A stretch of 64,000 bases of DNA. Source: Rubrivirga marina. GTDB taxonomy: Bacteria; Bacteroidota; Rhodothermia; Rhodothermales; Rubricoccaceae. Below, piece after piece: positions 23,851 to 58,650 of this stretch (its first letter is position 1; each line of letters opens with the position of its first letter). Below the pieces are notes generated by a model. That model was given only the letters and a program-made list of their open reading frames with translations, made no database searches and was not told the DNA's origin. Location: assembly GCF_002283365.1 (NCBI RefSeq), contig NZ_MQWD01000001.1, positions 3,071,749 to 3,135,748 on the forward strand. The letters run 5' to 3'. Position numbers and translations under genes: made by a program.

Positions 23851-24969
23851 ATGCGCATTGCCGCCGTCGTCCTGCTGATCGCCGTCGCCAGCGGGTGCGC
23901 TGCGACCGCCCCCGCCTCGGTGGTCGCGCCGAGCCCCGCGGTGGTGGTCGCCGTCGAGCCCCCCGCGCCGCCGCCGGTCCCGGTCGCCGAGCGTCCCGAG
24001 GTGGTCGAACTCGCCCCGCTCGTCCCGCCGCCCGTCCCCGAGCGCCGCATCGAGCGGCGGTCGGTCTACGAGCAGGCGGGGGTGACCGAGTGGACCCTCG
24101 CGAACGGGCTCACGGTCGTGTATCTGCACGAGCCCAACGCCGACGTGTACCGCGCTCGCGTCCAGGCGCCGACGGGTTGGGTGTCGCTCCCAGCGTCGAT
24201 GCGCAGCGTGTTCGAGGAGGGCGGCGCCGCGACGTGGGGCGGACTCCTGGCCTCAGTCGAGCCGCGGCGGCGGGTCGCCGTGGCCGAGGCTGAGACGCTG
24301 GCGGAGCTCGTCGGATCGGTCGAGGCGCTCTTTACGCGCCCCTCGGACCCGCCCGTGTCGGAGGCGATCGCGAGCGCCTTCGACCGGCCGTCTGATTTCG
24401 TCGTCGTGCTGTCGGGCCCGGTCGAGCGGGAATGGGTCGAGCCCGTTATTGCAACTGCCCTCGCACCCCTCCGCGGGCGCGACTCCGAGTTTGGGCCCCT
24501 CCTCGAGACTCCGGAGCCGATCGCGTCGGCGAGTCTCGTCGCCGAGATCAACGCCGGATGGGACGACCTCCCCGCCATCGTCTTGCTGAGCCACCTCCTG
24601 GCCGATCGGAGCGGGAGGGGAGACGCCGTTCGCCTCGACTTCGACGCCCCACGGCGAGTGGCGCACGCGCTCGTCGACCCCTCGGGGGCAGGGGCCGACG
24701 TCTTTCGCCCCGCCTCGGACGACGCGATCCGCGTGGCCCGGACCGAGAGCGCTCGTGCGGCGGCCTCTCCGGAGGGGCGGATCCTCGCGCTCGCGATCCT
24801 CTACGAGGTGCCCGGCAACGTCCGCCCGGCCCGCCCGCCGTCGGACGCGCTGACGCTCTCCGACCGGATCGAGCGTACGCCGCCCGCCCGTGTCGTCGAC
24901 CTTCTCGGTCGCCTCGCCCAGGCGGCCGTCGTCACGGCCCCGCCGCCCCTCCCATCTCTCCCCGAGTGA
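23851..24969 (+). CDS. Degenerate M16 (PqqL-like) peptidase homologue, lipoprotein
   Basis: A 372-residue protein with signal peptide (lipobox ASGC, Cys16), a proline-rich linker and two segments that resemble PqqL-type M16 peptidases: GVTEWTLANGLTVVYLHEPN (the usual NG-L-V start of an M16 domain) and SDFVVVLSGPVEREWVEPVI (the core strand-helix of the second half). The HxxEH zinc motif and the acidic third ligand are absent, and about half of a normal M16 domain is missing. It is probably a non-catalytic binding protein rather than a protease. Codons 199-201 contain one copy of the GTTATTGCAA motif. The stop overlaps the next start (GTGA). Confidence 0.55.
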   Translation: MRIAAVVLLIAVASGCAATAPASVVAPSPAVVVAVEPPAPPPVPVAERPEVVELAPLVPPPVPERRIERRSVYEQAGVTEWTLANGLTVVYLHEPNADVYRARVQAPTGWVSLPASMRSVFEEGGAATWGGLLASVEPRRRVAVAEAETLAELVGSVEALFTRPSDPPVSEAIASAFDRPSDFVVVLSGPVEREWVEPVIATALAPLRGRDSEFGPLLETPEPIASASLVAEINAGWDDLPAIVLLSHLLADRSGRGDAVRLDFDAPRRVAHALVDPSGAGADVFRPASDDAIRVARTESARAAASPEGRILALAILYEVPGNVRPARPPSDALTLSDRIERTPPARVVDLLGRLAQAAVVTAPPPLPSLPE

Positions 24970-25628
24970 CCGTGGACCCGCTTTTCACAGACGACGAACG
25001 CGAGCGCATCCGGCTGGCCGTGGCCGAAGCCGAGACCCGGACGGCGGGCGAGATCGTCCCCTACGTGGTGCGCCAGAGCGGGGACTACGACGTCGCGACG
25101 TGGCGGGCCGCCTCTGCTGGGGCGCTCCTCGCAGGGACCCTCGCCCTCGCCGTCGCGTGGCTCAACGACGGGTGGGGCTGGGGCTGGCTCTACTCGGCCT
25201 GGGCGCTCGCACTCGTGATGGCTGGGGGGGGCGTCCTCGGCGCGTTCCTGACGCTCCTCGACCCGGTCCGCCGGGCCCTCGCGGGGGCCGAGCGGCTCGA
25301 CACCGCCGTGCACCGACGCTCGGCCGTCGCGTTTCTCGAGGAGGAGGTGTTCGACACCCGCGACCGGACCGGCATCCTCCTGTTCGTGTCGCTCTTCGAG
25401 CACCGGATCGAGGTCGTCGGGGACGCGGGCATCAATGCGAAGGTGGAGCAGCACGAGTGGGAGGAGGTCGTCGACCTCATCCGCACTGGCATCCGCGGGC
25501 AGTCGTTGGCGGACGGGCTCGTGGCGGCGATCGAGAAGTGCGGCGACCTCCTTCATCGTCGCGGCGTCGCCGTCCGCCCCGACGACACCGATGAGCTTCC
25601 GGACGACGTCCGCGTGCGGGACGAATGA
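24966..25628 (+). CDS. TPM-domain membrane protein
   Basis: A 220-residue protein of the TPM (TLP18.3/Psb32/MOLO-1) family. The start MTVDPLFTDDERERIRLAVA followed by ETRTAGEIVPYVV opens the domain. It is interrupted by two transmembrane helices (ASAGALLAGTLALAVAWLND and YSAWALALVMAGGGVLGAFL) before the second half (LFVSLFEHRIEVVGDAGINA, VEQHEWEEVVDLIRTGIRGQ). Such proteins often sit beside a second TPM protein, as here. Biological roles are ill-defined outside photosystem repair. GTG 24966 and the stop both overlap neighbours by four bases. Confidence 0.8.
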   Translation: MTVDPLFTDDERERIRLAVAEAETRTAGEIVPYVVRQSGDYDVATWRAASAGALLAGTLALAVAWLNDGWGWGWLYSAWALALVMAGGGVLGAFLTLLDPVRRALAGAERLDTAVHRRSAVAFLEEEVFDTRDRTGILLFVSLFEHRIEVVGDAGINAKVEQHEWEEVVDLIRTGIRGQSLADGLVAAIEKCGDLLHRRGVAVRPDDTDELPDDVRVRDE

Positions 25629-26581
25629 GGGCGGGGGGCCTCCTCGCAGTCCTCCTGCTCGCGGTGCCTGGGGCCGCAGCGCTCGACGTCCCCCCGCTCA
25701 CCGGTCGCGTCGTCGACCTGGCCGACGTTCTCGACCCGGCCACCGAGGCGGCCCTGGTCGCGCGGTTGGCGGCGCACGAGGACAGCACGTCGAATCAGGT
25801 CGTCGTCCTCACGATCCCGTCGCTCGAGGGTGAGATTCTGGAGCCGTACGCGACGCGCGTGTTCCGGACGTGGGAGCTCGGCCAGGCCGACCGCGACAAC
25901 GGCATCTTGCTCCTCGTCGCCGTCGCCGACCGCGAGCTCCGGATCGAGGTCGGCTACGGGTTGGAGGGCTCGCTCACCGACGCCACGTCCGGGTCGATCA
26001 TCCGGGCCGAGATCGTCCCGCGGTTCCGCGACGGCGACTTCGACGCGGGCGTCGTGGCCGGGGTCGACGCGATCCTGGGAGCTATCGACGGTAGCTACGC
26101 GCCCCGGCCGCTCGCGGGTCTCCGCGACGGTCAATGGAAAGAACTGATCCTCTTCGGCGGCATGACGCTCCTCTTCGCGCCCTTCTTTCTCGTCCCGGCG
26201 GTCCTCCACGGGTTCACGTGGGAGACGGCCCGCGTGCAGACCATCACCGGCTCGGTCTTCGTCCTGTTCATGCTGGGGATGCCGCTCTTCGTCGCCACGG
26301 ACTCCGCCCTGCTGACGCTCAGCATCTCGATCGGCGTTCTCCTCGTGCTTCTGCTCCTGTGCTTCCTCGCGGACCGCATTCTGGAGGCGAACCCGAAGCT
26401 CCGTGCTTGGCGGGAGCACTGGCAGAAAAAACAGGCCGCGTTCAAACGGGCGCGCTCCCGTGGGGCCACGACGGTCGTCGTCGATGGTCGGCCGTACTCC
26501 GTCCCGACCTCGTCGTCGTCGGGCGGGTTCAGCGGCGGTGGGGGCTCGTCCGGTGGCGGCGGCGCCTCGGGGAGCTGGTGA
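25625..26581 (+). CDS. TPM-domain protein, YgcG-like, with Gly/Ser tail
   Basis: A 318-residue protein with a signal peptide (LLAVLLLAVPGAAA), an exported TPM domain (TGRVVDLADVLDPATEAALV, LAAHEDSTSNQVVVLTIPSL, DNGILLLVAVADRELRIEVG, YGLEGSLTD), then three membrane helices around residues 175-255 and a cytoplasmic tail ending in FSGGGGSSGGGGASGSW. The YgcG-type order and terminal Gly/Ser run are characteristic. It overlaps the previous TPM gene by ATGA, so the pair is likely to form one membrane complex. It ends opposite the convergent VOC gene. Confidence 0.85.
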   Translation: MRAGGLLAVLLLAVPGAAALDVPPLTGRVVDLADVLDPATEAALVARLAAHEDSTSNQVVVLTIPSLEGEILEPYATRVFRTWELGQADRDNGILLLVAVADRELRIEVGYGLEGSLTDATSGSIIRAEIVPRFRDGDFDAGVVAGVDAILGAIDGSYAPRPLAGLRDGQWKELILFGGMTLLFAPFFLVPAVLHGFTWETARVQTITGSVFVLFMLGMPLFVATDSALLTLSISIGVLLVLLLLCFLADRILEANPKLRAWREHWQKKQAAFKRARSRGATTVVVDGRPYSVPTSSSSGGFSGGGGSSGGGGASGSW

Positions 26582-26588
26582 CGGCCGT

Positions 26589-26609
26589 CTCGGTCGGTAT
26601 GTGACCGAG
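26589..26609. terminator. Hairpin between convergent TPM and VOC genes
   Basis: CTCGGTC (26589-26595) pairs with GACCGAG (26603-26609) on a 7-base loop; CGGCC/GGCCG (26582-26586 and 26617-26621) can extend the stem across an internal loop. It fills the 43-base gap between two convergent genes and could serve both. Confidence 0.4.
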
Positions 26610-26624
26610 GCAGACTGGCCGGAG

Positions 26625-27044
26625 CTACAGCGCCTCGATGCGGAGGAGCGTGCCGTCGACGTCGCGGAGGTAGATCGCGGCCGGCGTTTCGGTGTACCGG
26701 ATGCCCTGGAGGTCGAGGCGGGCGCGGAGGAGCGTGACGGTCCGCCGCGGCATCCCGAAGGCGAGCTCGTGCACGCCGCGGGCCGTCTCGTCGTCGGACT
26801 CGACGAGCTCGAAGACCTGGTGGCCCTCGGCGTCGAGCATCTGGGCCCGCGGCTGCGCCGTCATCGGGTGGACGCCCAGCCCGCCGAGCGTCAGCCCCAG
26901 GGCGGTGACGTAGAAGTCGAGCGCCTCGTCGAACCGCGTCGTGCGGACGCAGACGCTGCGGAGCCAGATCGCGGAGCTCGGCTTGCGGAGGGCGCGCTCG
27001 GCTTGGCGATACGCGGAGTCGAGCGTGGCGGAGGTGGGAGACAT
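26625..27044 (-). CDS. VOC-family (glyoxalase/bleomycin-resistance fold) protein
   Basis: A 139-residue protein. After a 30-residue N-terminal helix, two beta-alpha-beta-beta-beta units of a VOC fold are clear: RSVCVRTTRFDEALDFYVTA, LGLTLGGLGV and MLDAEGHQVFELVESDD, then VHELAFGMPRRTVTLLRARL and AIYLRDVDGTLLRIEAL. Metal-ligand positions are partly kept (HELAF, EAL). VOC proteins range from glyoxalases to dioxygenases, and the substrate cannot be inferred. It is a stand-alone gene between the TPM pair and the Suf region. Confidence 0.75.
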   Translation of the reverse strand: MSPTSATLDSAYRQAERALRKPSSAIWLRSVCVRTTRFDEALDFYVTALGLTLGGLGVHPMTAQPRAQMLDAEGHQVFELVESDDETARGVHELAFGMPRRTVTLLRARLDLQGIRYTETPAAIYLRDVDGTLLRIEAL

Positions 27045-27164
27045 GTGGCGGGCGTGCCGGGGAAAGAGAGTGATCGACGCACAGTCTCCTCCACCGGTTA
27101 TGCCAGCGTTTCTCCGACCCGTTCACCGCGCGCTGGTGGAACGATCCCGCCCAGATCCTCTGGC

Positions 27165-27389
27165 CTAAAACACGGTGCCTCCGTCGACGGATGCCTGCCT
27201 AGGCTCCGGAGAGCGGTCGGGGCCCGTCATCGTCCCGATCCAGCGACGACAGTCGGCGTCGATCCCGAGGGCGTGGGGCCCACCCGTGACGCCCGGTGCG
27301 TCGAGGCCCGTCGCGTCCAGGGAGCTGGGCCCGGTCAGGCTGCACGCGGTGAGTACGAGAGAGCAGACCCGAACGAGAGCGGCACTCAT
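27165..27389 (-). CDS. Possible small lipoprotein
   Basis: A 74-residue frame with an ATG, a hydrophobic start and a lipobox-like LTAC (MSAALVRVCSLVLTACSLTG). The mature part is short, polar and without a known motif (ALGIDADCRRWIGTMTGPDR). It lies alone in a 450-base interval between the VOC gene and the Suf cluster. Small lipoproteins of this style are frequent in the phylum, but the frame could be fortuitous in GC-rich DNA. The rest of 27045-27490 shows only a small hairpin (CCCCT/AGGGG near 27431-27444). Confidence 0.35.
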   Translation of the reverse strand: MSAALVRVCSLVLTACSLTGPSSLDATGLDAPGVTGGPHALGIDADCRRWIGTMTGPDRSPEPRQASVDGGTVF

Positions 27390-27467
27390 TTAGGGGCGGT
27401 GAGACCGTCCAACGCTCGCCCTCGGGTCTCCGACCGGCGTCCCCTCCGCAGGGGAGCCCACCCCGCT

Positions 27468-27487
27468 CCGCCTCGCCGCCGAGGCGG
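27468..27487 (-). repeat. CCGCCTCGG-family hairpin after the sufT-like gene
   Basis: CCGCCTCG (27468-27475) pairs with CGAGGCGG (27480-27487) around CCGC, six bases past the stop of the minus-strand gene. No T-run follows. Confidence 0.55.
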
Positions 27488-27493
27488 GCGGGG

Positions 27494-27856
27494 CTACATG
27501 AACCCCAGCGTCAGCCGGGCCTCGTCACTCAGCATCTCCATCGAGTACGACGGCACGAACACGAGGTCGATCTTCGCGTGCGCCACGCCCTCCAGCGCGT
27601 TGACGCCCTGCTCGACCTCGGCCGGCAGCGTCTCGGCGGCCGGGCAGTTCGGCGCCGTCAGCGTCATCTTGACCGTGACGTCCTTGCCGTCGGCCTCGGG
27701 CGCGTCCTCGATGGTCCAGCCGTAGATCAGGCCGAGGTCCCAGATCGGGACGGGGATCTCCGGGTCGTAGATGGTCCGCATGACCTGGACCATGCCGTCT
27801 TCGAGCTCGGAGAGGTCGTCGGCCTCGCGGCCGTCGCGGAGGAAGTCGCGTTCCAT
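27494..27856 (-). CDS. SufT-like/MIP18-type Fe-S maturation protein
   Basis: A 120-residue DUF59 (MIP18) protein starting at ATG 27856 (MERDFLRDG). The family motifs are DGMVQVMRTIYDPEIPVPIW, DLGLIYGW, KMTLTAPNCPAAETLPAEVE (with the conserved Cys) and VFVPSYSMEMLSDEARLTLG. SufT-like proteins help transfer Fe-S clusters to apo-enzymes. It is the last gene of the sufB-sufC-sufD run on the minus strand, which supports this role. It is followed by a CCGCCTCGG-type hairpin. Confidence 0.85.
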   Translation of the reverse strand: MERDFLRDGREADDLSELEDGMVQVMRTIYDPEIPVPIWDLGLIYGWTIEDAPEADGKDVTVKMTLTAPNCPAAETLPAEVEQGVNALEGVAHAKIDLVFVPSYSMEMLSDEARLTLGFM

Positions 27857-27914
27857 GGGTCGTTGGACGTGCGGGGTGAAACGTGGAGCGTTCGACGCCG
27901 CACGTTCCACGTGT

Positions 27915-29225
27915 CTACTTCAGCCGCTCGGCGATGCGGGCGTCGAGGTGGTCGCGGACGGCCTCGATCGGCACCATCTCGACCACGTCGTGGGCGAAGG
28001 CGTAGAGGAGCATCGCCCGCGCGTCGGCCTCGGAGACGCCGCGGCTGCGGAGGTAGAAGATGTGCTCGGGCTCGATGGCGCCGGTCGTCGAGCCGTGCGA
28101 GCACTTGACGTCGTCGGCGTAGATCTCGAGCTCCGGTTTCGAGTAGTGGTGCGCGTCGGGGCTGAGGACGACGCCCTGGCTCTGCTGGTAGGCGTTCGTC
28201 TGCTGGCCCTCGCGCTGGACGAACACCTTGCCGTTGAAGACGCCCGTGCCCTGGTCGTAGATGATGCCCTTGAACAGCTCGTTCGACTCGCAGCCCGGGG
28301 CCACGTGGTCGATCAGCGTGTTCGTGTCGACGTGCTCGGCGCCGTGGCAGATGTAGAGTCCGCCGATCGTCGCGTTGCCGCCCTGGCCGGCCGGCACCAT
28401 CACGGAGTTGTTCCGGACCGTCCCGGCCGCGAACGTGAACGTCAGCGTGGAGACCGTCGAGTCGCGCTCCTGGTAGCTCTGGACGTGGGTGACCGCGTTG
28501 GCGTCGTCGCCCTCGTCCTGGATCCGGACGTGCGTGACGTTCGACGCAGGGCCGGCCACGATCTCCGTGAGGTCGTTGCGGAACGTCGGCGCGTCGCCGC
28601 GGACGACGTAGGTCTCGATCACCTTGACCTCGGCGGTCTCGCCGACCACGAGGAGGTTGCGGCCCTGCACGAACGTCGGCCCGTCGGCCGTGAGGACGTT
28701 CACCACGTGGATCGGCCGCTCGACGGCGACGCCGCGTGGGACGTGGAGGTAGACGCCGTCCAGCGAGAGCGCGGCGTTGAGGGCCGCGAACGCGTCGCGC
28801 TCGACGCGGACGTGGGCGCCGAACGTGTCGGCGAGGGCGTCGGGCGACTGGCGAGCCGTCTGGGCCAGCGACGCGACCGTCACGCCCTCCGGCAGCCCGC
28901 CGAGGTCCGAGGCCTCCGCGTCGAACCGGCCGTTGACGATCACGACTCGGACCGCGTCGAGCCCGTCGATCCGGGCCGCGGCCAGGTCCGCCTCGGTCGC
29001 CGAGGCGGGGGGGGCGGGGGCGTAGTCGGGCTTGAGGGCCGGGCGGAGGTCGGTGTACTTCCACGCCTCGTCGCGCGTCGACGGCAGGCCGGCGGCCTCG
29101 AACGCGTTCTTCGCGGCGGTGCGGCGGACGGCGAACGGGTCGGGCGCGCCGTCGCCGGAGAACGCGCCCTCCAGCGCCTCCGTCGCGTGGCGGAGCAGGG
29201 CGGGGGCCTTTTCGAGGTCGATCAT
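27915..29225 (-). CDS. sufD: Fe-S cluster assembly protein SufD
   Basis: A 436-residue component of the SufBC2D scaffold, starting at ATG 29225 (MIDLEKAPALL). Its beta-helix core and SufD/SufB C-terminal motifs are clear: ERPIHVVNVLTADGPTFVQG, IQDEGDDANAVTHVQSYQER, SVMVPAGQGG, HGAEHVDTNTLIDHVAPGCE and DDVKCSHGSTTGAIEPEHIF. The conserved histidine of KCSHG is present. In the family SufD with SufB and SufC builds Fe-S clusters. A CCGCCTCGG/CCGAGGCGG palindrome (28988-29008) lies inside the coding region. A 61-base gap separates it from sufC. Confidence 0.93.
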   Translation of the reverse strand: MIDLEKAPALLRHATEALEGAFSGDGAPDPFAVRRTAAKNAFEAAGLPSTRDEAWKYTDLRPALKPDYAPAPPASATEADLAAARIDGLDAVRVVIVNGRFDAEASDLGGLPEGVTVASLAQTARQSPDALADTFGAHVRVERDAFAALNAALSLDGVYLHVPRGVAVERPIHVVNVLTADGPTFVQGRNLLVVGETAEVKVIETYVVRGDAPTFRNDLTEIVAGPASNVTHVRIQDEGDDANAVTHVQSYQERDSTVSTLTFTFAAGTVRNNSVMVPAGQGGNATIGGLYICHGAEHVDTNTLIDHVAPGCESNELFKGIIYDQGTGVFNGKVFVQREGQQTNAYQQSQGVVLSPDAHHYSKPELEIYADDVKCSHGSTTGAIEPEHIFYLRSRGVSEADARAMLLYAFAHDVVEMVPIEAVRDHLDARIAERLK

Positions 29226-29286
29226 GGGGTGGGGGATGGGGTAAGGGTGAAGAGCGAGGGGCTCGTCGCCCCCCACGCGTCACTCG

Positions 29287-30051
29287 TTACGCCGCGGGGG
29301 CAGCTTCCTCGATGAGCCAGTCGTAGCCCTTCACTTCGAGCTCCTCGGCCAGCTCCGGACCGCCGGACCGGACGATGCGGCCGTCGACGAGGACGTGCAC
29401 CTTGTCCGGCGTGATGTAGTCGAGGAGGCGCTGGTAGTGCGTGATGAGCACGAACGCGCGGTCCTCCGAGCGGAGCTTGTTGACGCCGTCGGAGACGACC
29501 CGGAGCGCGTCGATGTCGAGGCCGGAGTCGGTCTCGTCGAGGATCGCGAGGCGCGGGTCGAGCATGGCCATCTGGAAGATCTCGGCCCGCTTCTTCTCGC
29601 CGCCCGAGAACCCCTCGTTCACCGACCGCTGCGTGAGCTTCGGGTCGAGGTTGACGAATGCGGCCTTCTCGCGCATCAGCTTGATGAAGTCGCCGACCGG
29701 CAGCGGCTCCTGCTTCCGGTGCTCGCGGACCGAGTTGACGGCCGTCCGGAGAAACTGGTGCGTGCTCACGCCGGGGAGCTCGACCGGGTACTGGAACGCC
29801 AGGAAGAGGCCCTCGCGGGTCCGCTCCTCCGGGTCCATCTCGAGGAGGTCCTCGCCGTCGAACTCGACGGAGCCCTCGGTGATCTCGTAGTCGTCGCGGC
29901 CGGCGAGGACGCTGGCGAGCGTCGACTTGCCGGACCCGTTCGGGCCCATGATGGCGTGGACCTCGCCCGAGTTGACGTCGAGCGAGAGCCCCTTGAGGAT
30001 CTCGTGGTCCTCGACGGAGACGTGGAGGTTGTGGACGGAGAGGAGAGACAT
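29287..30051 (-). CDS. sufC: Fe-S cluster assembly ATPase SufC
   Basis: A 254-residue ABC-type ATPase. Walker A is GPNGSGKST, the Q-loop region is LAFQYPVELPGVSTHQFLRT, the signature is FSGGEKKRAEIFQMAMLDPR, Walker B is LAILDETDSGLD, and the switch histidine is in LITHYQRLLDYI. It energises the SufBCD scaffold. It sits between sufB and sufD on the minus strand; a CCGCCTCGG hairpin separates it from sufB, which could adjust the ratio of products. Start ATG 30051 (MSLLSVHNLHVSVEDHEIL). Confidence 0.96.
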   Translation of the reverse strand: MSLLSVHNLHVSVEDHEILKGLSLDVNSGEVHAIMGPNGSGKSTLASVLAGRDDYEITEGSVEFDGEDLLEMDPEERTREGLFLAFQYPVELPGVSTHQFLRTAVNSVREHRKQEPLPVGDFIKLMREKAAFVNLDPKLTQRSVNEGFSGGEKKRAEIFQMAMLDPRLAILDETDSGLDIDALRVVSDGVNKLRSEDRAFVLITHYQRLLDYITPDKVHVLVDGRIVRSGGPELAEELEVKGYDWLIEEAAPAA

Positions 30052-30109
30052 GCGTCGTTCGGAGTGCGGCGCCCGCGTCGGGCGCTCGTTCGGGAGAGTC
30101 GTTGAGTCG

Positions 30110-30133
30110 GTCCGCCTCGGCGTCGAGGCGGAC
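30110..30133 (-). repeat. CCGCCTCGG-family hairpin between sufB and sufC
   Basis: GTCCGCCTCG (30110-30119) pairs perfectly with CGAGGCGGAC (30124-30133) around GCGT, eight bases after the sufB stop and inside what should be one operon. An internal position in an operon argues for mRNA processing or stabilisation rather than full termination. Confidence 0.6.
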
Positions 30134-30141
30134 GGGGTCGG

Positions 30142-31605
<1,464 letters not shown>

Positions 31606-31626
31606 GGGCGGTAGATCGTGTCCGGA

Positions 31627-31676
31627 GCGAACCGGGCGTAGAGGGGGCTGTTCCACCAAGACGGGGCGAACCGGGC
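31627..31676. promoter_or_regulatory. Direct repeat in the divergent sufB/iscA-like spacer
   Basis: GCGAACCGGGC occurs at 31627-31637 and again at 31666-31676, 39 bases apart, in the 210-base spacer between sufB and the IscA-type gene. A repeat on one face of the helix in a shared promoter region is a candidate binding site for an Fe-S regulator. No known SufR/IscR consensus is recognised. Confidence 0.3.
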
Positions 31677-31815
31677 CAGTCGCACGTCGGTCCCGATGAA
31701 CCCCGTCCGAAGTCGGATCGGGGGGGGAGGTACGAAGTTCGGGTCACTCGCCGTCTCCTGCCCGGCTGAGGGGTGAAACGTCCCCGAAGGCCTGGTGTCA
31801 CAGCCCCCCTTCACT

Positions 31816-32160
31816 ATGACCGAGTCTCTCCCGTTCGCCATCACCGAGCGCGCCCGCCAGCGGCTGGCATCCGTCGCCGTCGCCGAGGGCGTCGACCTTG
31901 GTGAAACGTTCCTCCGGGTCGCCGTGGTACCCGGCGGCTGCTCGGGCCTGACCTACGACCTCGGCTGGGACACCGTCGCCGGCCCGGCCGACGAGACCGT
32001 CGAGGTCGACGGGCTCCGCCTCGTGCTCGACCCGCGTTCGCTTGTGACCGTCGAGGGCACGACGCTCGACTTCACGGATGGCCTCGAGGGCAAGGGCTTC
32101 CACTTCGACAACCCCCAGGCTGTTCGGACGTGCGCTTGCGGCGAGTCGTTCTCGCTGTGA
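31816..32160 (+). CDS. IscA/SufA-type Fe-S cluster carrier (HesB family)
   Basis: A 114-residue A-type carrier starting at ATG 31816 (MTESLPFAITERARQRLASV). The three cluster-binding cysteines are present as GGCSGLTYDL and the C-terminal CACGES (C-x-C-G). It accepts clusters from the SufBCD scaffold and passes them on. It is divergent from sufB and shares a 210-base spacer, fitting co-regulation. Its last four bases overlap the GTG of the next gene. Confidence 0.92.
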   Translation: MTESLPFAITERARQRLASVAVAEGVDLGETFLRVAVVPGGCSGLTYDLGWDTVAGPADETVEVDGLRLVLDPRSLVTVEGTTLDFTDGLEGKGFHFDNPQAVRTCACGESFSL

Positions 32161-32690
32161 GAGGACCGCTCGTCGTCGTCGTCCTCGTCGGCCTCGGTGC
32201 CTGCGCCGATGACCCCGGTGCGTCGGCCCCGACCGTCCCGAACCCGACGGCTTCCGAGACGGTCAACCCCGCACCCGGCCTCGAGGCCGACGCGATGGCG
32301 CCGGCCGTCCAGGCCTCCGACCCGACGAGCGCCGACGCGGCGACCGACCGGCTCCTCGCCTACATCGGCGCCCACGCCGAGGGCTCTGCCGAGGCGGACA
32401 CCTTCTGGGCGCCCGAGGGGCTCCCAACGGGCGCCGACGTCTCGACCGAACCCTTCCGCCAGTCGGGTCAGCGCGTGGCGGGAGCGACCGTCGACGAGCC
32501 GAGCCGGCCGGAGGGCGCAGCGGGATCGGTCTACGTGACGGTGCCCGCGACGCTCGTCGTCCGCACCGAGGAGGGGGCGACGGAGACGGTCCGTCTGGCG
32601 TACACACTCCGCAGAGTCAACGACATACCCGGTGCGGAGCCGTGGTCGCTCCGGTGGCACATCGATCGCGTCGAGGCCGTCCGGCCCTAG
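32157..32690 (+). CDS. Lipoprotein of unknown function
   Basis: A 177-residue protein if started at GTG 32157, which gives an ideal signal peptide (MRGPLVVVVLVGLGAC, lipobox Cys16) and a 4-base overlap with the carrier gene; an earlier GTG at 32130 is possible. A low-complexity Ala/Pro/Thr/Asp linker is followed by a compact domain (LLAYIGAHAEGSAEADTFWA, SVYVTVPATLVVRTEEGATE, TVRLAYTLRRVNDIPGAEPW, SLRWHIDRVE). The second part resembles small NTF2/beta-sheet lipoproteins, but no family is recognised. A hairpin at 32709-32738 ends the unit. Confidence 0.6.
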   Translation: MRGPLVVVVLVGLGACADDPGASAPTVPNPTASETVNPAPGLEADAMAPAVQASDPTSADAATDRLLAYIGAHAEGSAEADTFWAPEGLPTGADVSTEPFRQSGQRVAGATVDEPSRPEGAAGSVYVTVPATLVVRTEEGATETVRLAYTLRRVNDIPGAEPWSLRWHIDRVEAVRP

Positions 32691-32708
32691 AAGCCGTCGC
32701 TACAAAGA

Positions 32709-32738
32709 AGCCCGCTGGCCTTACGGGGCCAGCGGGCT
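32709..32738. terminator. 12-bp hairpin after the lipoprotein gene
   Basis: AGCCCGCTGGCC (32709-32720) and GGCCAGCGGGCT (32727-32738) are perfect complements on a TTACGG loop, 18 bases after the stop at 32690. The plus side lacks a T-run; the minus side reads CTTCTTTGT. Confidence 0.6.
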
Positions 32739-32799
32739 CAAGGGTGGGACGTGGGACGGCACGTCATCACCTGTGCCCAATGAACGGCAGATACGGGAA

Positions 32800-32986
32800 A
32801 CGTGTGCCCCGTCTGTCACGCTTTGGACCGTCTTCACGACACGTGTAGGGAATCCCTGATCAGGGGGTGTCGTGAACCACTAAAACAACGGCGCAGTGAA
32901 CGGCTTCGGTCACTATCTGGAGATAGTGTGAACTGGGCGGGCTCGGTATCCTCTCGGCCCTAACCAGGCATCGCCGGGTCGTTCAT
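32800..32986. other. Structured, gene-free interval between convergent genes
   Basis: No coding frame is convincing here. The interval is less GC-rich than its surroundings and contains nested symmetry: TTCACGACAC (32833-32842) with GTGTCGTGAA (32867-32876), enclosing the perfect palindrome CCCTGATCAGGG (32854-32865), and then CACTATCT-GG-AGATAGTG (32911-32928). GTGAAC occurs three times (32872, 32896, 32928). It lies between the 3' ends of two convergent genes, where no promoter is needed. A small RNA, a short non-autonomous element or a protein-binding site are all possible. Confidence 0.4.
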
Positions 32987-33466: not shown

Positions 33467-33491
33467 GGACTCAGGGGGGGACACCCGAAAA

Positions 33492-34649: not shown

Positions 34650-34693
34650 GGCATGCTCGATATTCAGGGCCCCCTGTACCGCCGACCCCCACC

Positions 34694-35206: not shown

Positions 35207-35274
35207 GGGCGCGCGAATCGGGCGGATTGCGGGGCGCGGAGTCCTTACCCTGAGGCGTCCCCCCGACCGATCTC

Positions 35275-36432: not shown

Positions 36433-36503
36433 CCGTCCGTACGTCCCGATCTTCTGAGGGCGTGCGCCTCGGGCGTCCAGTTCTGTCCTCCACCTCCCGC
36501 CCC

Positions 36504-37121: not shown

Positions 37122-37130
37122 CCGCGGCCC

Positions 37131-37171: not shown

Positions 37172-37184
37172 CCGTTATTGCAAC
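37172..37184 (+). repeat. CCGTTATTGCAAC motif, intergenic copy
   Basis: CCGTTATTGCAAC at 37172-37184, in the 63-base gap between the converging HAS-barrel and outer-membrane-protein genes. It is one of six same-strand copies in the window (core positions 24445, 37174, 52219, 52920, 56509 and 58641). Confidence 0.6.
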
Positions 37185-43588: not shown

Positions 43589-43589
43589 C

Positions 43590-47183: not shown

Positions 47184-47184
47184 C

Positions 47185-48597: not shown

Positions 48598-48678
48598 GTG
48601 GTGGGACGGGAGAGTCAGGGCTGCATCGGGTCTCCGGTGCCCACTCGTCAAACGGATCCCCAGAATGGCTACCAATCG

Positions 48679-51932: not shown

Positions 51933-51970
51933 GTTCGGAATCTAGAGCGGCGCCGAAGCGTGGCAGGGGC

Positions 51971-52777
51971 ATGACTCCTGCCCTCGTCGACACCCACGTC
52001 CACCTCTACGCCGACGCCTACGACGCCGACCGCGACGCCGTCGTGGCCCGCGCCCGCGCCGCGGGCGTCGCCCAGATGATCCTGCCCGCCGTCGACCTCG
52101 CCTCGGTCGACGACGTGCTCGCGCTGTGCGATCGTCACGTCGGCGTGTTCGGGATGGCGGGTCTCCACCCGACCTACCTCGGCGACGCGCCGGAGGAAGC
52201 GGCCGAACGGATCGGTCCGTTATTGCAAGACCGACACATCATCGCCGTGGGCGAGACCGGCCTCGACTATTACTGGAGCCGCGAGCACGAGGAGCGACAG
52301 CGTGCCTCGCTCGCCGCGCACGCCCGCCTGGCCGCTGCCCACCGCCTGCCGCTCTCGCTCCACAACCGCGACAAGAAGGACAGCGACGACGCTTCGCGCG
52401 ACCTCGTCGCCATCCTTCGCGAGGTCAAGGCCGAGGCCGGGGACGCGCTGACGGGCGTGTTCCACTGCTTCGGCGGGCCGACGTGGCTGGCCCACGAGGT
52501 CCTCGACCTCGGGTTCTTCGTCGGACTAGGCGGCACGCTGACGTTCAAGAACGCGGGTGTGCCCGACGCCATCGCGGACGTCCCGCTCGATCGGATCGTG
52601 CTCGAAACCGACGGCCCCTACCTCGCGCCCACACCGCACCGCGGCTCCCGGAACGAGCCCGCCTACGTCGCGCTCGTCGCCCAGACGCTCGCCAGAGTTC
52701 GCGGGCTGACAGTCGGGGAGGTCGCCGAGGCGACCACGGCCAACGCCCGCCGGCTGTTCGGGCTGCCGGACTCCTGA
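51971..52777 (+). CDS. tatD: TatD-family metal-dependent DNase
   Basis: A 268-residue TIM-barrel hydrolase: metal ligands His9/His11 in VDTHVHLYADAY, Glu in IAVGETGLDYYWSREHEERQ, His in RLPLSLHNRD and GVFHCFGG, and Asp in IVLETDGPYLAPTPHRGSRN. The family includes 3'-5' exonucleases and D-aminoacyl-tRNA deacylases. Codons 83-86 (P-L-L-Q) use CCG TTA TTG CAA, three rare codons in a genome of this GC content, and form one copy of the CCGTTATTGCAA motif. It is divergent from the kinase gene. Confidence 0.92.
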   Translation: MTPALVDTHVHLYADAYDADRDAVVARARAAGVAQMILPAVDLASVDDVLALCDRHVGVFGMAGLHPTYLGDAPEEAAERIGPLLQDRHIIAVGETGLDYYWSREHEERQRASLAAHARLAAAHRLPLSLHNRDKKDSDDASRDLVAILREVKAEAGDALTGVFHCFGGPTWLAHEVLDLGFFVGLGGTLTFKNAGVPDAIADVPLDRIVLETDGPYLAPTPHRGSRNEPAYVALVAQTLARVRGLTVGEVAEATTANARRLFGLPDS

Positions 52778-52778
52778 C

Positions 52779-53006
52779 TCAGTCGAAGTCGCTGCAGGAC
52801 ATGAAATAGCCGCACCGCGGGTCCGGGCACCGGCGCTTGCAGCGATGGTTGTAGAGCCGACAGCCGCAGTTCGGGCAGTAGTTCCAGTGGTCGGCGGCCT
52901 GCTTGGTCTCTCTGGTGCCGTTATTGCACACAGGGTTCCCAACTCCCTGGGCCTCCGGGAAGGGGAGGGAGGGCTCCGTCAGCTTGGGGCGGCGCGACGG
53001 GTTCAT
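52779..53006 (-). CDS. Small cysteine-rich zinc-binding protein
   Basis: A 75-residue protein with eight closely spaced Cys at its C-terminal half: [20 protein letters not shown] followed by [12 protein letters not shown]. The pattern (C-x2-C-x-C ... C-x3-C-x3-C-x4-C) suggests one or two zinc sites. No family is recognised. Its start at ATG 53006 overlaps the upstream gene by ATGA, coupling the two. The codons for C-N-N (27-29) include an antisense copy of the GTTATTGCA motif. Confidence 0.6.
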
Positions 53007-53473
53007 GGCTCCGAGATCTCCAACAACCGGTGGCCCTCTGCGGCGGACGCCCGGAACGCGGCGACGAGCGCGTCGAAGTCGGGCCAGTCGGCCGGCTCGA
53101 AGGTGACGACGGTGTCACCGAGGCCGACCGTCAGCTCGCCGTGCTGGAGCCGGGCCGACGACACGGGCGCGAGCGCGCCCTCGGGCGGCGTCGCCGCGGC
53201 CTGCCACACGGAGTGGACGGCCGCGAACGGACCGCGGACGTCGACCTGCGCCTGGGTCGAGAGCAGCCGGCCCTGCCCCACGATCACGGCCACGCCGTAG
53301 GCCACGGCCGTGCCGCCGACGAACGGCCACAGGATGTCCTCCCCCTGCATCGCCGCCGCCAGCCCGACCGTCATCACGGCGAGCAGGGCGAGGGCGACCG
53401 GCCGCGCCTGCGCCTGGAGGGCCAGCCACGGGCGTGACGTGTCGCCGGGGTGATGGACGCTCTTGAACGTCAT
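53003..53473 (-). CDS. Two-helix membrane protein, PH-like domain, function unknown
   Basis: A 156-residue protein with two transmembrane helices ([20 protein letters not shown] and [19 protein letters not shown]). The C-terminal domain ([40 protein letters not shown]) looks like a small bacterial PH (DUF304-type) or similar beta-rich domain. It is coupled to the downstream Cys-rich gene. Neither member of the pair has a known role. Confidence 0.5.
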
Positions 53474-53497
53474 CGGCAGTCGGGGGGACGCCTCAGG

Positions 53498-55135
53498 TTA
53501 CGCCTCGTCGTCTGAACCCAGGAACGGGTACGTGAAGTGCGTGGCCGGGACGAACGTCTCCTTGAGCGAGCGGAGGCTGGCCCAGCGGAGGAGGTTCAGC
53601 TTCGAGCCGGCCTTGTCGTTCGTGCCGGACCCGCGGGCCCCGCCGAACGGCTGCTGCCCGACGACGGCGCCGGTCGGCTTGTCGTTGAGGTAGAAGTTGC
53701 CGGCGGCGTCGGCGAGGCGGTCGGTGGCGTGGGCGAGGACGGCCCGGTCGCGGGCGAAGACGGCGCCGGTCAGCGCGTACGGGCTGGTCGAGTCCACGAG
53801 GTCGAGGAGGTCGTCGAACGACCGGTCCGAGACGAACACCGAGGCGACGGGGCCGAAGATCTCCTGCTCCATCGTCTCGTAGCTCGGGTCGTCCGTGAGG
53901 AGGACTGTCGGGTCGACGAAGTAGCCGTCCTCCTTCGAGTGAGTCCCGCCGTGGACTACCTCCACGTTGTCGGCTTGGGCGGCGCGGTCGACGTAGCCGG
54001 TGATCTTGTCGTACGCCTTCTCGTCGATGACGGCGTTGACGAAGTGCGAGAAGTCCTCGACCGGCCCGACCGTGATCTCGGCCAGCTGGGCCTCGAGGGA
54101 CTCGCGGACGGCCGGCCAGAGCGCCTCCTCGACGTAGATCCGGCTCGCGGCCGAGCACTTCTGCCCCTGGTACTCGAACGACCCGCGCACGATGGCCGTC
54201 GCGACCGCCTCCGGGTCGGCGCTCTCGTGGGCGACGATGAAATCCTTCCCGCCCGTCTCCCCGACGATCCGCGGGTAGGCGTTGTAGTGGTCCAGGTTGT
54301 TGCCGATCTCGCGCCAGAGGTGGTTGAAGGTCTGCGTCGAGCCGGTGAAGTGGAGCCCGGCGAGGTGCTCGCTGGCGAGGACCGGGTCCCCCACGTCCGG
54401 CCCGTCGCCTGGGAGGAACTGGATCACGCCCGGCGGGAGGCCGGCGGCTTGCAGCAGCTCGACGATGACCTGCGCCGAGTACGTCTGCGTCGGCGCGGGC
54501 TTCCAGAGGACCGTGTTGCCGAGGAGTGCCGGCGCCGTGGGGAGGTTCGCGGCGATCGACGTGAAGTTGAACGGCGAGACGGCGAACACGAAGCCCTCGA
54601 GTGGCCGGTACTCGGTCCGGTTCCAGACGCCGGCCGGGCTTTGAGGCTGCTCCTCCATCATCTCGCGGTAGAACGCGACGTTGAACCGGAAAAAGTCGAC
54701 CATCTCGCAGGCCGCGTCGATCTCGGCCTGGTACGGGTTCTTCGACTGGCCGAGCATCGTGGCCGCGTTCATCCGGTCGCGGAACGGGCCGGCCAGCAGC
54801 TCGGCGGCCTTCAGGAAGATGGCCGCGCGGTCCGACCAGTCCATCCGGCTCCAGTCGTGGCGCGCGTCGAGGGCGCCCCGGATGGCCCGCTCGACGTCCT
54901 CCGTCCGGGCCTTGTGGAACGTGCCGAGGGTGTGGCCCAGGTCGTGCGGCGGGCGAATCGTCTCGGTTCGCCCGGTCTCAACGCGCTCGCCGTTGACGAC
55001 GGGCAGGACCATCATCTCCTCGCCGCGCATCGCGGTAAGCGTCTCGCGGAGCGACGCGCGCTCGGGGCTGCCGGGAGCGTAGTCACGGACGGGCTCGTTT
55101 CGGGGCGGTGGCGGGGTGGCGATCGCGTTGTGCAT
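53498..55135 (-). CDS. pruA: Delta-1-pyrroline-5-carboxylate dehydrogenase
   Basis: A 545-residue aldehyde-dehydrogenase superfamily enzyme from ATG 55135. It has the PruA-type start LPVVNGERVETGRTETIRPP, cofactor loop FVFAVSPFNFTSIAANLPTA, GVIQFLPGDGPDVGDPVLAS, FTGSTQTFNHLWREIGNNLD, catalytic Glu in RIVGETGGKDF and catalytic Cys in FEYQGQKCSAASRIYVEE. QQPFGGARGSGTNDKAG closes the site. It oxidises glutamate-semialdehyde to glutamate in proline breakdown. PutA/proline dehydrogenase is not adjacent. The long form (about 545) matches the stand-alone enzyme. Confidence 0.95.
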   Translation of the reverse strand: MHNAIATPPPPRNEPVRDYAPGSPERASLRETLTAMRGEEMMVLPVVNGERVETGRTETIRPPHDLGHTLGTFHKARTEDVERAIRGALDARHDWSRMDWSDRAAIFLKAAELLAGPFRDRMNAATMLGQSKNPYQAEIDAACEMVDFFRFNVAFYREMMEEQPQSPAGVWNRTEYRPLEGFVFAVSPFNFTSIAANLPTAPALLGNTVLWKPAPTQTYSAQVIVELLQAAGLPPGVIQFLPGDGPDVGDPVLASEHLAGLHFTGSTQTFNHLWREIGNNLDHYNAYPRIVGETGGKDFIVAHESADPEAVATAIVRGSFEYQGQKCSAASRIYVEEALWPAVRESLEAQLAEITVGPVEDFSHFVNAVIDEKAYDKITGYVDRAAQADNVEVVHGGTHSKEDGYFVDPTVLLTDDPSYETMEQEIFGPVASVFVSDRSFDDLLDLVDSTSPYALTGAVFARDRAVLAHATDRLADAAGNFYLNDKPTGAVVGQQPFGGARGSGTNDKAGSKLNLLRWASLRSLKETFVPATHFTYPFLGSDDEA

Positions 55136-55293
55136 GGCGGGGTCGGATCCGAGAAACTGGGGACGGGCAGAGAGGGGTGCCTGCCGAAAGCTAGGGAGCC
55201 GGCGGCGAGCGTTCGAAGGGCTTCCGGTCAACTTCCCGATGGCTCGCCACGAACGGAGCGACCTTTCGGCCTCCGGCGTAGGCGTCGGCCCGC

Positions 55294-55313
55294 CCGCCTC
55301 GGCACCGAGGCGG
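55294..55313. repeat. CCGCCTCGG-family hairpin in a divergent spacer
   Basis: CCGCCTCGG (55294-55302) pairs with CCGAGGCGG (55305-55313) around CA, identical to the core of the copy at 37134-37153. Here it lies between the starts of pruA and the LolC/E-like gene, not after a stop codon, so it cannot be a terminator for either. Confidence 0.6.
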
Positions 55314-55350
55314 AGGAGGCCGGCTCCTGGATCCCCTTTCCCCGCTCTCG

Positions 55351-56607
55351 ATGATCGGCCCCTTCGAACGCACGCTCGCGCTCCGCTACCTCCGTGGGGC
55401 CGAGGGCCGCGACGAGCGGCGCGGGTTCCTGCGGTTCGTCGTCGTCGCGGCCATCGGAGGCGTGGCGGTCGGCACGGGCGCGCTGCTGCTCGCGCTGATG
55501 ATCGTCCGCGGGTTCAGCCGCGAGATCGAGGCCAAGATCGTCGGGTTCGGCCAGCACGTGCAGGTCGAGACGTACCTCGGCGAGCCGATCCAGAACGTCG
55601 ACAGCGTGGCGGCAGCCGTGGCCGGCCTCGAGCATGTCGAGAACGTCGCGCCCGCCATCGTCGACTTCGCCCTCCTCAGCAGCCGCGGGTCGGGCAACGA
55701 GTCGGTGGAGGGCGTGCTGCTGTGGGGCACCGAGGCGGAGGACCAGCCGTTCGTCGCGGAGCGTACCGAGGCCGGCGCCTTCGACCTCGGGGAGGACGCC
55801 GAGGGGCGGCCCGGGGTCGTCCTCGGGCTCCGGCTGGCGGAGCGGCTCGGGCTGTCGGTCGGCGACCGAATCACGGCGTACTCGACCCGGGGCCTCGGCG
55901 CCGGTCAGATCCAGTCGCGCCCGCGGGTCCGTCAGTACCACGTGGCTGGCGTCTTCGAGACCGGACTCGGCGACTTCGACGAGCGGTTCGCATTCGTCGG
56001 CCTCGACGCGGCGGCGCAGTTGTTTGCGTACCCACCCGGTCAGGTCTCCCGCCTCGACGTCACGCTCGACGACCGGATGAACGCTCGGGCCGTGTCGGAC
56101 GCGGTGACCGACAAGATCGGGCCGCCGCTCTTCGCGCGGTCGATCGAGGAGGTGTACCGCGGGCTCTTCGCCTGGGTCGAGCTCCAGCAGAGCATCGTCC
56201 CCCTCGTGATCTCGATCCTCGTGGTCGTCGCGGCGTTCAACATCGTCGGGGCCCTGCTGATGGTGGTGCTCGAGAAGGCCCGCGAGATCGGAACGGTGCT
56301 GGCGATGGGCGCCAGCCGGGCGTCCGTGCGGCGGCTGTTCTTGGTGTTCGGGTTGATGGTGGGCGTGATCGGCGCTGCGATCGGGACGGCCGTGGCGGTC
56401 GCGTTTGGCGCGATCCAGGCGCGGTTCGCGATCATCCGGTTGCCGCAGGACGCGTACTACCTCGACCGGGCGCCGGTGGAGATGAGCGGGGTCGACATCA
56501 TAGCGACCGTTATTGCAACTGTACTTATCTGCACCCTGGCTGCTTACCTCCCCGCCCGCGCCGCAGCGAGCGTCGAGCCCGTCCGTACGATCCGGTTCGG
56601 GGGGTAG
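55351..56607 (+). CDS. LolC/E-type ABC transporter permease (MacB/FtsX family)
   Basis: A 418-residue membrane protein with one N-terminal and three C-terminal helices around a large periplasmic domain (about 50-280). N-terminal LALRYLRGAEGRDERRGFLR, C-terminal SIVPLVISILVVVAAFNIVG, ALLMVVLEKAREIGTVLAMG (coupling helix) and LAAYLPARAAASVEPVRTIR match LolC/LolE. It extracts lipoproteins from the inner membrane when paired with LolD, which is not in the window. Codons 387-390 (V-I-A-T) hold a copy of the GTTATTGCAACTG motif. ATG 55351 is 215 bases from the divergent pruA. Confidence 0.85.
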   Translation: MIGPFERTLALRYLRGAEGRDERRGFLRFVVVAAIGGVAVGTGALLLALMIVRGFSREIEAKIVGFGQHVQVETYLGEPIQNVDSVAAAVAGLEHVENVAPAIVDFALLSSRGSGNESVEGVLLWGTEAEDQPFVAERTEAGAFDLGEDAEGRPGVVLGLRLAERLGLSVGDRITAYSTRGLGAGQIQSRPRVRQYHVAGVFETGLGDFDERFAFVGLDAAAQLFAYPPGQVSRLDVTLDDRMNARAVSDAVTDKIGPPLFARSIEEVYRGLFAWVELQQSIVPLVISILVVVAAFNIVGALLMVVLEKAREIGTVLAMGASRASVRRLFLVFGLMVGVIGAAIGTAVAVAFGAIQARFAIIRLPQDAYYLDRAPVEMSGVDIIATVIATVLICTLAAYLPARAAASVEPVRTIRFGG

Positions 56608-56767
56608 GAGGAGGGGAGGGGCACCCTTCCACGCGTTCTCGAGACGAGGGGAATTCAGCGGATTCGAGCGGCTCCGCCCCGCGGGTCGTCGGTCTTCCGT
56701 CCGGGTCCCGCGAACCGCGCACGGGCACGGTCGTAGCCCGAAGCCCTCCGTCCCCCCAAACCTTCCC

Positions 56768-57250
56768 ATGGCCCTCTCCGCCGGCGACGCCGCCCCCGAT
56801 TTCTCGCTCTACGACGACGCCACTGACGAATTCTCTCTCGCCGAGGCGCGTGAGGACGGCCCGGTCGTCCTCCTGTTCTTCCCTGGCGCGTTCACCAGCG
56901 TCTGCACGACCGAGCTCAACACCGTCGGCAACGACTACGACCGGTACACCGACCTCGGCGCGCAGGTCGTCGGCATCTCGACGGACTCGCCGTTCGCCCT
57001 CGCCGAGTTCAAAAGCGTCAACGGCTTCCCGTTCCGGCTCCTCTCCGACCACGACGGCGAGGTCTCGGCCGCCTACGGCGCGAAGTATGACAACGATTTT
57101 ACCCCGATGGGCCTCGACCGGATCTCGAAGCGCGCGGCGTTCGTGGTCCGGCCCGACGGGACGCTCGCCTACACCGAAGTCCTCGAGAACGCCGGCGAGC
57201 AGCCCGACTTCGACGCGATCCTCAACGCCCTCCATGGAGCCTCCGAGTGA
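56768..57250 (+). CDS. Peroxiredoxin (AhpE/BCP-like)
   Basis: A 160-residue thioredoxin-fold peroxidase. The peroxidatic motif is LLFFPGAFTSVCTTELN with Cys46; GISTDSPFALAEFKSVNGFP and FPFRLLSDHDGEVSAAYGAK follow. No second cysteine is present, so it appears to be a 1-Cys enzyme. It reduces hydroperoxides with an external thiol. The stop overlaps the moaE start by 17 bases, an unusual coupling of a peroxidase with cofactor synthesis. Confidence 0.92.
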   Translation: MALSAGDAAPDFSLYDDATDEFSLAEAREDGPVVLLFFPGAFTSVCTTELNTVGNDYDRYTDLGAQVVGISTDSPFALAEFKSVNGFPFRLLSDHDGEVSAAYGAKYDNDFTPMGLDRISKRAAFVVRPDGTLAYTEVLENAGEQPDFDAILNALHGASE

Positions 57251-57650
57251 CCGCGATTGGTGGTCGGCGCTGACCGAGGAGCCCCTCGACGTCGGCGCCG
57301 TCCACGCGTTTCTGGCCGACGAGCGTGCGGGTGGGACCTGCGTGTTCGTCGGCACCAGCCGGCGGTGGACCGATGGCGCCGAGACGGACCTTCTGACGTA
57401 CGAGGCGTACCCCGATATGGCCGAGGCGGAGCTCGCCCGGCTCGCCGTCGTCGCAGCCGAGCGGTGGGACGCCGTGAAGGTCGCCGTCCTGCACCGGACG
57501 GGCGCCGTGCCGCCCCCCGAGGCCAGCGTCGCCGTCGGCGTCGCGTGCCCGCATCGGGCCGAGGCGTTCGAGGCCGCGCGCTGGCTCATCGACACCCTCA
57601 AGGAGTCCGTCCCCATCTGGAAGACCGAACACGCCGACCGTGATGCCTGA
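57234..57650 (+). CDS. moaE: Molybdopterin synthase catalytic subunit MoaE
   Basis: A 138-residue MoaE: LDVGAVHAFLADERAGGTCV, FVGTSRRWTDGAETDLLTYE, AYPDMAEAELARLA, VAVLHRTGAVPPPEASVAVG and the active-site tail ESVPIWKTEHADRDA, with the conserved Lys in WKTE. With MoaD it adds the dithiolene sulfurs to precursor Z. MoaD is not adjacent. ModA/ModB for molybdate uptake are encoded 34 kb upstream. Start ATG 57234 lies inside the peroxiredoxin gene. Confidence 0.9.
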   Translation: MEPPSDRDWWSALTEEPLDVGAVHAFLADERAGGTCVFVGTSRRWTDGAETDLLTYEAYPDMAEAELARLAVVAAERWDAVKVAVLHRTGAVPPPEASVAVGVACPHRAEAFEAARWLIDTLKESVPIWKTEHADRDA

Positions 57651-58638
57651 CCGCTTTTCGTTTTCCGACCTCCATGACCGTGCGCGCGCGCTCAAGAAGC
57701 GGATCGCGCTGCCCGAAGGCGAGGACCCCCGCACGATCCGCGCGGCGGCGTGGCTAGCCGAGCACGAGGTCGTCCGCCCCCTCCTGATCGGCCGGGAGGC
57801 TCAGATCCGCGCCGAGGCCGACCGCCTCGGCGTCTCGCTGCCCCACTCCGTCCCGATCGTCGACCCGGCCCAGAGCGAGCGGTCTCAGACCTATGCGCAG
57901 GCCCTCTTCCAGAAGAGGAAGCACAAGGGGCTGACGTACGAGCAGGCCGGCGAGTGGACGCAGGACGTCCTCTACTTCGGCGACCTCATGGTCGACGCGG
58001 GCGACGCCGACGGCTGCGTGGCCGGCGCGGCCCACCCGTCGCCCGACGTGATCCGCGCGGCGATCCACGTGCTGGGCGTGGCCGAGGGCTCGGCGCTCGT
58101 CTCGTCGTTCTTCCTGATGGTGCTCCCCGACGGTCGCCCGCTCACGTACGCCGACTGCGGGGTCAACGCCGACCCGTCGGCGGAGCAACTCGCATCCATC
58201 GGCCTCGACGCGGCGGCGAACCATCGGTTTCTGACCGGACAGGAGCCAGTCGTCGCGTTCCTGTCCTTCTCGACGAAGGGCTCGGCCGATCACCCGGATG
58301 TCGACAAGGTCCGGGAGGCCGTCGAGATCGCGCGGAGGAAGAAGCCGGACCTCGCCCTCGACGGCGAGTTCCAGTTCGACGCGGCCTTCGACGCGGGCGT
58401 GGGCGAACGGAAGGCGCCAGGAAGTCCGGTCGCCGGGAAGGCCAACGTGTACGTCTTCCCCGATCTCGGCGCGGGCAACATCGGCTACAAGATCACCCAG
58501 CGCGTCGGCGGGGCCGAGGCGTTCGGGCCTGTGCTCCAGGGGCTCCGGTTGCCGGCGAACGACCTGTCGCGAGGGGCCGACTGGGAGGACATCGCGAACG
58601 TGGCGACGATCACGGCGATTCAGGCCGGAGCCGTATAG
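57643..58638 (+). CDS. pta: Phosphate acetyltransferase (Pta), short form
   Basis: A 331-residue enzyme that exchanges acetyl between CoA and phosphate. Matches: KKRIALPEGEDPRTIRAAAW, EQAGEWTQDVLYFGDLMVDA, DADGCVAGAAHPSPDVIRAA, SFFLMVLPDGRPLTYADCGV, FLSFSTKGSADHPDVDKVRE, LDGEFQFDAAFDAGVGERKA and PDLGAGNIGYKITQRVGGAE. The start ATG 57643 is 8 bases before the moaE stop. The acetate kinase partner is not in the window, so the enzyme may use another acetyl-phosphate sink. It ends two bases before a GTTATTGCAA copy. Confidence 0.93.
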   Translation: MPDRFSFSDLHDRARALKKRIALPEGEDPRTIRAAAWLAEHEVVRPLLIGREAQIRAEADRLGVSLPHSVPIVDPAQSERSQTYAQALFQKRKHKGLTYEQAGEWTQDVLYFGDLMVDAGDADGCVAGAAHPSPDVIRAAIHVLGVAEGSALVSSFFLMVLPDGRPLTYADCGVNADPSAEQLASIGLDAAANHRFLTGQEPVVAFLSFSTKGSADHPDVDKVREAVEIARRKKPDLALDGEFQFDAAFDAGVGERKAPGSPVAGKANVYVFPDLGAGNIGYKITQRVGGAEAFGPVLQGLRLPANDLSRGADWEDIANVATITAIQAGAV

Positions 58639-58640
58639 CT

Positions 58641-58650
58641 GTTATTGCAA
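58641..58650 (+). repeat. GTTATTGCAA motif at the nitrilase start
   Basis: GTTATTGCAA at 58641-58650; its last A is the first base of the ATG of the next gene. It fills the 11-base gap between pta and the nitrilase gene, where a ribosome-binding site would normally lie. It is one of six same-strand copies in the window. Confidence 0.6.

Follow-up and report, generated by a model that had tools for sequence, protein, structure and literature searches.

A short polar motif, CYGTTATTGCA, recurs in the 64,000-nt stretch of Rubrivirga marina DNA analysed here (the window: contig C1 of genome G000, 3071749-3135748, within a 4.98-Mb genome of 11 contigs). Its copies run in from both arms of the chromosome towards a dif-like site at the end of the window, nearly all copies scored in related chromosomes of the order Rhodothermales behave likewise, and the word recurs as a single convergent pair on most plasmids from that order. 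We regard it as an even call whether this word serves as a Ter-like, one-way barrier to replication forks, read by a putative protein and forming a fork trap. Just short of evenly balanced is the wider proposal that the Rhodothermales may possess a third, independently evolved fork-trap system, with a word common to the chromosome and most plasmids and a reader protein unlike Tus. A barrier of this kind, which was not named in the preliminary description of this DNA, fits the observations better than the Chi-like, uptake or KOPS-like (FtsK-orienting polar sequence) signals that were proposed there.

The motif itself is genuine. String counts on both strands of the window gave five exact copies of GTTATTGCAA, all on the + strand and none on the - strand, together with the variant GTTATTGCAC at 52920 (+ strand), precisely where the preliminary description had placed them. 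Six occurrences were found when up to one mismatch to GTTATTGCAA was allowed, against a mean of 0.07 and a maximum of 1 in 100 dinucleotide shuffles; among words present at least four times in the window the core words stood far ahead in their ratio to expectation, and TTATTGCA had the highest observed/expected ratio of all such 8-mers (6 vs 0.001, under a trinucleotide-based Markov expectation). Alignment with copies elsewhere yielded the better spelling CYGTTATTGCA, followed by A in 67 of 97 distinct sites that had been selected for the core, with weakly A/T-rich flanks on either side in the same set, and with slight conservation past about 8-12 bp around the core. Written in this form, the copies of the window, all on the + strand, read CCGTTATTGCA at 24443..24453, 37172..37182, 52217..52227 (within a tatD-like gene, 51971-52777), 52918..52928 (next base C) and 56507..56517 (within a LolC/E-like permease gene, 55351-56607), and CTGTTATTGCA at 58639..58649, directly after the stop codon of a phosphate acetyltransferase gene (57640-58638). 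Other particulars of the earlier account also survived a recount: CCGTTATTGCAACTG is common to the copies at 24443 and 56507, the short form CCGTTATTGT lies at 63172, and the copies are spread over several reading frames, sense and antisense positions and intergenic DNA, as judged with a rough gene set from position 28253 onward. The 10-mer is indeed absent from the first 24 kb, as reported, but the shorter CGTTATTG occurs there once, at 15635.

Across the whole of G000 the exact 10-mer occurs 13 times and its reversed control not at all. On the 4.71-Mb contig that contains the window, GTTATTGC has 19 copies, ten on the + strand (2647194 to 3130389) and nine on the - strand; eight of these fall between 3143447 and 3662404, and the ninth, at 238315, belongs to the right arm too. 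The polarity list was compiled without this last copy, the flanks of which were not read; every one of the 18 chromosomal YGTTATTGCA copies is directed at the dif-like site, + before it and - after it. Since dnaA lies at 441579, the motif changes strand in the half opposite the origin, and because the GC skew of this genome is too weak for placing the terminus, its position was judged from dnaA and the dif-like site. The end of the window is the chromosome terminus: the 28-bp dif-like site ACTCACGATAACAGTAATTATCGAACCG (63847..63874, + strand) occupies the 13-kb gap between the innermost motif copies, where the strand changes, and is followed by the start of an Xer-type tyrosine recombinase gene (PF00589, PF02899; 63956..64000, + strand) that continues past the window end. 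This gene starts 81 bp after the dif-like site, and a gene of the same kind starts less than 50 bp from the site in the related genomes G004 and G020. Apparent scpB genes (SMC partner, so identified by eye) of two genera each contain a motif copy, at L047 (G000 3147491) and L189 (G004 1733647), with similar codons around both.

The pattern extends to other genomes of the order (G labels denote genomes and f labels families). Exact motif copies were found in 58 of 60 of them; families were assigned as motif-bearing or motif-less by counts against the reversed control, which were clearly higher than the control in f1, f3, f4, f6-f10, f12 and f13, the remaining families having few. In eight chromosomes from five families (f1, f3, f8, f12, f13), scored on main-contig copies with dnaA taken as the origin, 126 of 128 YGTTATTGCA copies are leading-strand copies that converge on the terminus, the two non-convergent copies being one each in G020 and G046. 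Each scored chromosome has 10-21 copies, with a median distance to dif of 16-150 kb vs 798-1201 kb if they were uniformly placed; 57 of the 128 are less than 60 kb from dif, density peaks near dif in most of these chromosomes, and the innermost gap is as small as 7 kb (G004). Whole-genome counts, counts in relatives and a plot of strand bias against origin and terminus had been proposed as checks in the preliminary description, and their outcome upholds its notion of a strand-specific signal, with polarity towards the terminus. Two of the identities it offered, Chi and uptake sequence, do not suit so few, clustered and strictly convergent copies, and KOPS is unlikely.

The strand flip lies opposite dnaA and, in G019, coincides with a change in the sign of GC skew. 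The flip intervals of G000, G004, G015, G019, G020 and G024 contain dif-like sites of the form GATAA-N6-TTATC, and all eight terminus regions have a recombinase gene from one and the same cluster (the members in G020 and G046 being divergent); it adjoins the dif-like site in G000, G004 and G020, the distance being 0.6 kb for G015 and for G019, and 5 kb for G024. The dif profile was built from six sites picked by eye among pattern hits, so that their profile scores are not independent, and the sites of G032 and of an island in G010 were found later with that profile. The reference point was the island dif in G010 and, in G046, which has no identified dif, a point in the middle of the flip interval. 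G032 (f14) stands outside the 128; its second dnaA was taken as the origin because the skew changes near it. G041 was left unscored because its dif was not found; about 11 of its 14 copies would converge if the terminus were at about 1.63-1.79 Mb. Near the terminus, a motif copy also stands just before genes for type II topoisomerase-like subunits, so named by eye from their translations, at L150 (G019 4457015) and L197 (G020 1847648).

Parts of this distribution could in principle arise by chance, by codon context, by leading-strand gene bias or by the spread of a single mobile element. In G032, whose family has no motif cluster, all 11 copies occupy the leading strand without clustering, an outcome that gene bias could yield, and the 10-mer is present in 16 of 19 genomes of other groups, reaching 24 occurrences where the DNA is richer in AT. 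Against this stand the empty reversed control in the window's genome, the clustering at dif, the occurrence in several frames and in non-coding DNA, the slight conservation of the flanks and the pairing on plasmids described below; we hold that clustering and pairing refute the explanation, to which we assign practically no probability. Leading-strand polarity, convergence on dif and a density that rises towards it are also what would be expected of KOPS-like or other translocase-orienting sequences, a class among the architecture imparting sequences (AIMS), and copies near dif-like cores on contigs would suit them as well. However, 10-21 copies per chromosome are few, and we consider this identity improbable because the helix with which FtsK-gamma reads DNA hardly differs between 11 motif-bearing and 10 motif-less genomes (21 of 24 domains readable), because separate G-rich leading-strand octamers exist in G000 (GGGGGAGG, 63 to 10, and GGGNAGGG, 83 to 32, in a 440-kb sample), and because G046 bears the motif without an FtsK-gamma match, where an assembly gap is possible. 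Quite improbable, too, is some other organiser of the terminus with a MatP-like function, or several functions combined. Restriction to the terminus in 10-21 copies would accord with such a role, but matS, the site of MatP, is palindromic and CYGTTATTGCA is not, and small exact pairs on plasmids would be out of keeping with it.

Thirteen plasmids, twelve from Salinibacter ruber and one from Rhodothermus marinus, were scanned as linear sequences with their circle ends unjoined, each being read whole except pSR11 (11000 of 11229 bases). Exactly one convergent CYGTTATTGC pair, and no further copy, is present in 11 of the 13, with a spacing of 102-226 bp start to start. The A after GC is missing from one partner in pSR116 and from both in pRMAR01, and an isolated TCGTTATTGC occurs additionally in three of the 11 pair-bearing plasmids. 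A replication gene lies 0.03-3.2 kb from the pair in ten S. ruber plasmids; inside these ten pairs no dif-like core was recognisable, and in the ten intervals no inverted repeat between the paired copies exceeded those of shuffled sequences. Contig 2 of G020 encodes a Rep with 100% identity to that of pSR35 from S. ruber DSM 13855. Six small contigs of G000 and G004 also carry motif copies; on five of them a single exact copy lies 61-66 bp from a dif-like core, towards which it points. These core-adjacent copies lie close to where a recombinase gene begins or, on G000:C10, close to the beginning of a two-gene unit with such a gene as its last member. On G000:C5 a partner with one mismatch stands on the far side of the core, and on G004:C14 the two copies of a pair stand on either side of an imperfect palindrome, which was matched in 7 of 300 shuffles. 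The copy on G046:C2 lies within a HerA-like gene, with no dif-like core there. The terminus interval of G010 (L279, L280; about C1:1597000-1745000) is some 127 kb longer than that of G024 and contains an island in which a motif pair flanks a dif-like core, an arrangement closely resembling that on pRMAR01; the island is probably an integrated plasmid.

The company of dif-like cores on contigs raises the alternative of an element linked to Xer or SMC: an isolated Xer-type half-site, a site for a host factor that aids Xer recombination at dif and plasmid cores, or a site of SMC unloading near the terminus. We consider this the chief competitor of the fork barrier, though an unlikely one. On the five contigs the motif has both a dif-like core and a tyrosine recombinase gene as neighbours, and pairs flank such a core in pRMAR01 and the G010 island. 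The dif arm with three spacer bases shares 11 of 12 positions with the motif in G004, ten in G032, nine in G000 and nine in G024, and the next best matches to the dif profile are motif copies in three genomes. Two accounts, moreover, describe XerD as unloading SMC in a sequence-specific manner at the terminus of Bacillus subtilis (PMC12322038, PMC8242196). On the other hand, the motif is unchanged in G015, G019 and G020, where the dif arms are unlike it (fewer than 9 of 12 positions), and constant beside contig cores that vary (GATAA or GAGAA); the ten S. ruber pairs enclose no recognisable core, and strict polarity answers no obvious need of such an element. In G032, where the dif-like site is a perfect palindrome without a motif cluster, no variant motif that tracks the dif arm was found around dif, the top polar words there resembling an unrelated repeat. 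That repeat, centred on AGCCTTAGTGCTCC (loci L210-L254), occurs 21 times on one strand of a 640-kb sample, and is perhaps a CRISPR or other repeat array.

A fork trap is favoured because the word converges once per molecule, in many copies on the chromosome and as one pair on most plasmids, including those without a visible dif-like core. From this arrangement we infer protein binding, one-way arrest and the identity of the blocking face. A chromosomally encoded DNA-binding protein other than Tus would bind each motif copy as a polar complex; a fork travelling 5' to 3' along the motif would pass, while one that had run beyond the terminus would meet the opposite face of a complex and stop. The chromosomal copies, at least ten in number, would then constitute a redundant trap around dif, and the single plasmid pair a trap of 100-230 bp, placed near rep in the Salinibacter plasmids. 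Several observations weigh against this proposal. Tus (PF05472) scored above cut-off in none of 40 genomes, the RTP family not having been searched; weak matches to Tus below the cut-off were obtained in G004 (E 0.135) and G015 (0.62). No candidate gene common to the copies was found beside them in the part of the neighbourhoods that was covered, which hardly took in the outer copies of G020, G024 and G046; the genes beside the motif that families do have in common, for example a topoisomerase subunit, are those syntenic at the terminus. Of the 16 copies in G010 none is within 60 kb of dif, and of the 16 in G046 just 3 are. Among the plasmids, pSR56 has one copy and pSR11 none, the pRMAR01 pair lies 29 kb from RepA, and this pair and that of the G010 island enclose a dif-like core; a plain trap would have no need, either, of the single exact copy beside the core on the five contigs. 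Since Tus was not found, the action proposed is fork-trap-like, but no member of the Tus family is involved on present evidence.

Outside the order the word thins out. The 12-mer occurs at least once in 228 of 296 genomes drawn from the phylum; most of those outside the order have 0-5 copies, often slightly more than of the reversed control, and a few have higher counts, among them G098 (7 and 8), G297 (10 and 7) and G334 (6 and 7). In these three genomes, which belong to other families of the phylum, CYGTTATTGCAA is frequent on both strands and control copies are few or none; they may possibly harbour the same system. Among the top-ranked open-licence matches to a literature search on fork traps in Rhodothermales, Salinibacter and Rhodothermus no such system appeared, and a search with the 10-mer returned no title on the subject among the matches listed, one paper on bacterial genome regulation having the 10-mer in a primer. 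Many bacteria are thought to manage without a fork trap. Two fork-trap systems have been described, and their proteins are confined to four clades in the account of PMC6549158. A polar, convergent word at the terminus of both chromosomes and plasmids in another group would make the purpose of fork traps testable in cultured Rhodothermus and Salinibacter; it can also be used as bait for its binding protein and as a marker of the terminus where GC skew is weak, and it offers a link between termination and Xer/dif.

Comparison with known systems sets the motif apart from each of them in some respect. It differs from the Tus/Ter system of Enterobacterales and of the plasmids R1 and R6K in the sequence of the site, in that the Tus family was not found in the 40 genomes searched, and in the small innermost gap (7 kb in G004), unlike that of E. 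coli. TTGCAAC may bear some likeness to the Ter core. In layout and copy number the motif matches Tus/Ter. In one account of that system, opposed Ter clusters of E. coli have dif between the innermost sites, the R6K terminus blocks both forks, and two ter sites lie close to the origin of R1 (PMC10331603). Here also the sites are short, polar and non-palindromic, about ten or more to a chromosome and few on plasmids, in opposed arms (126 of 128 convergent) with dif between the innermost, the dif-like site falling in the flip interval in six chromosomes. The RTP/Ter system of Bacillus likewise has opposed clusters around the terminus, but its sites are described as two half-sites with one dimer bound to each (PMC10331603), as against the single 11-bp polar core with weak flanks found here in 97 distinct core-selected sites. 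XerD-dependent SMC unloading in B. subtilis shares with the motif a restriction of sites to the terminus, and in some genomes there is a resemblance to an Xer half-site; the motif differs in its indifference to changes in the dif arm and in its pairing on plasmids. The AIMS, finally, are described as leading-strand octamers that rise in abundance towards the terminus, with an E. coli criterion of 96 or more per genome (PMC5993296). CYGTTATTGCA resembles them in leading-strand polarity, convergence and a density rising to dif, but it is present in only 10-21 copies, is not followed by FtsK-gamma in its distribution, and forms pairs on plasmids without a visible dif-like core.
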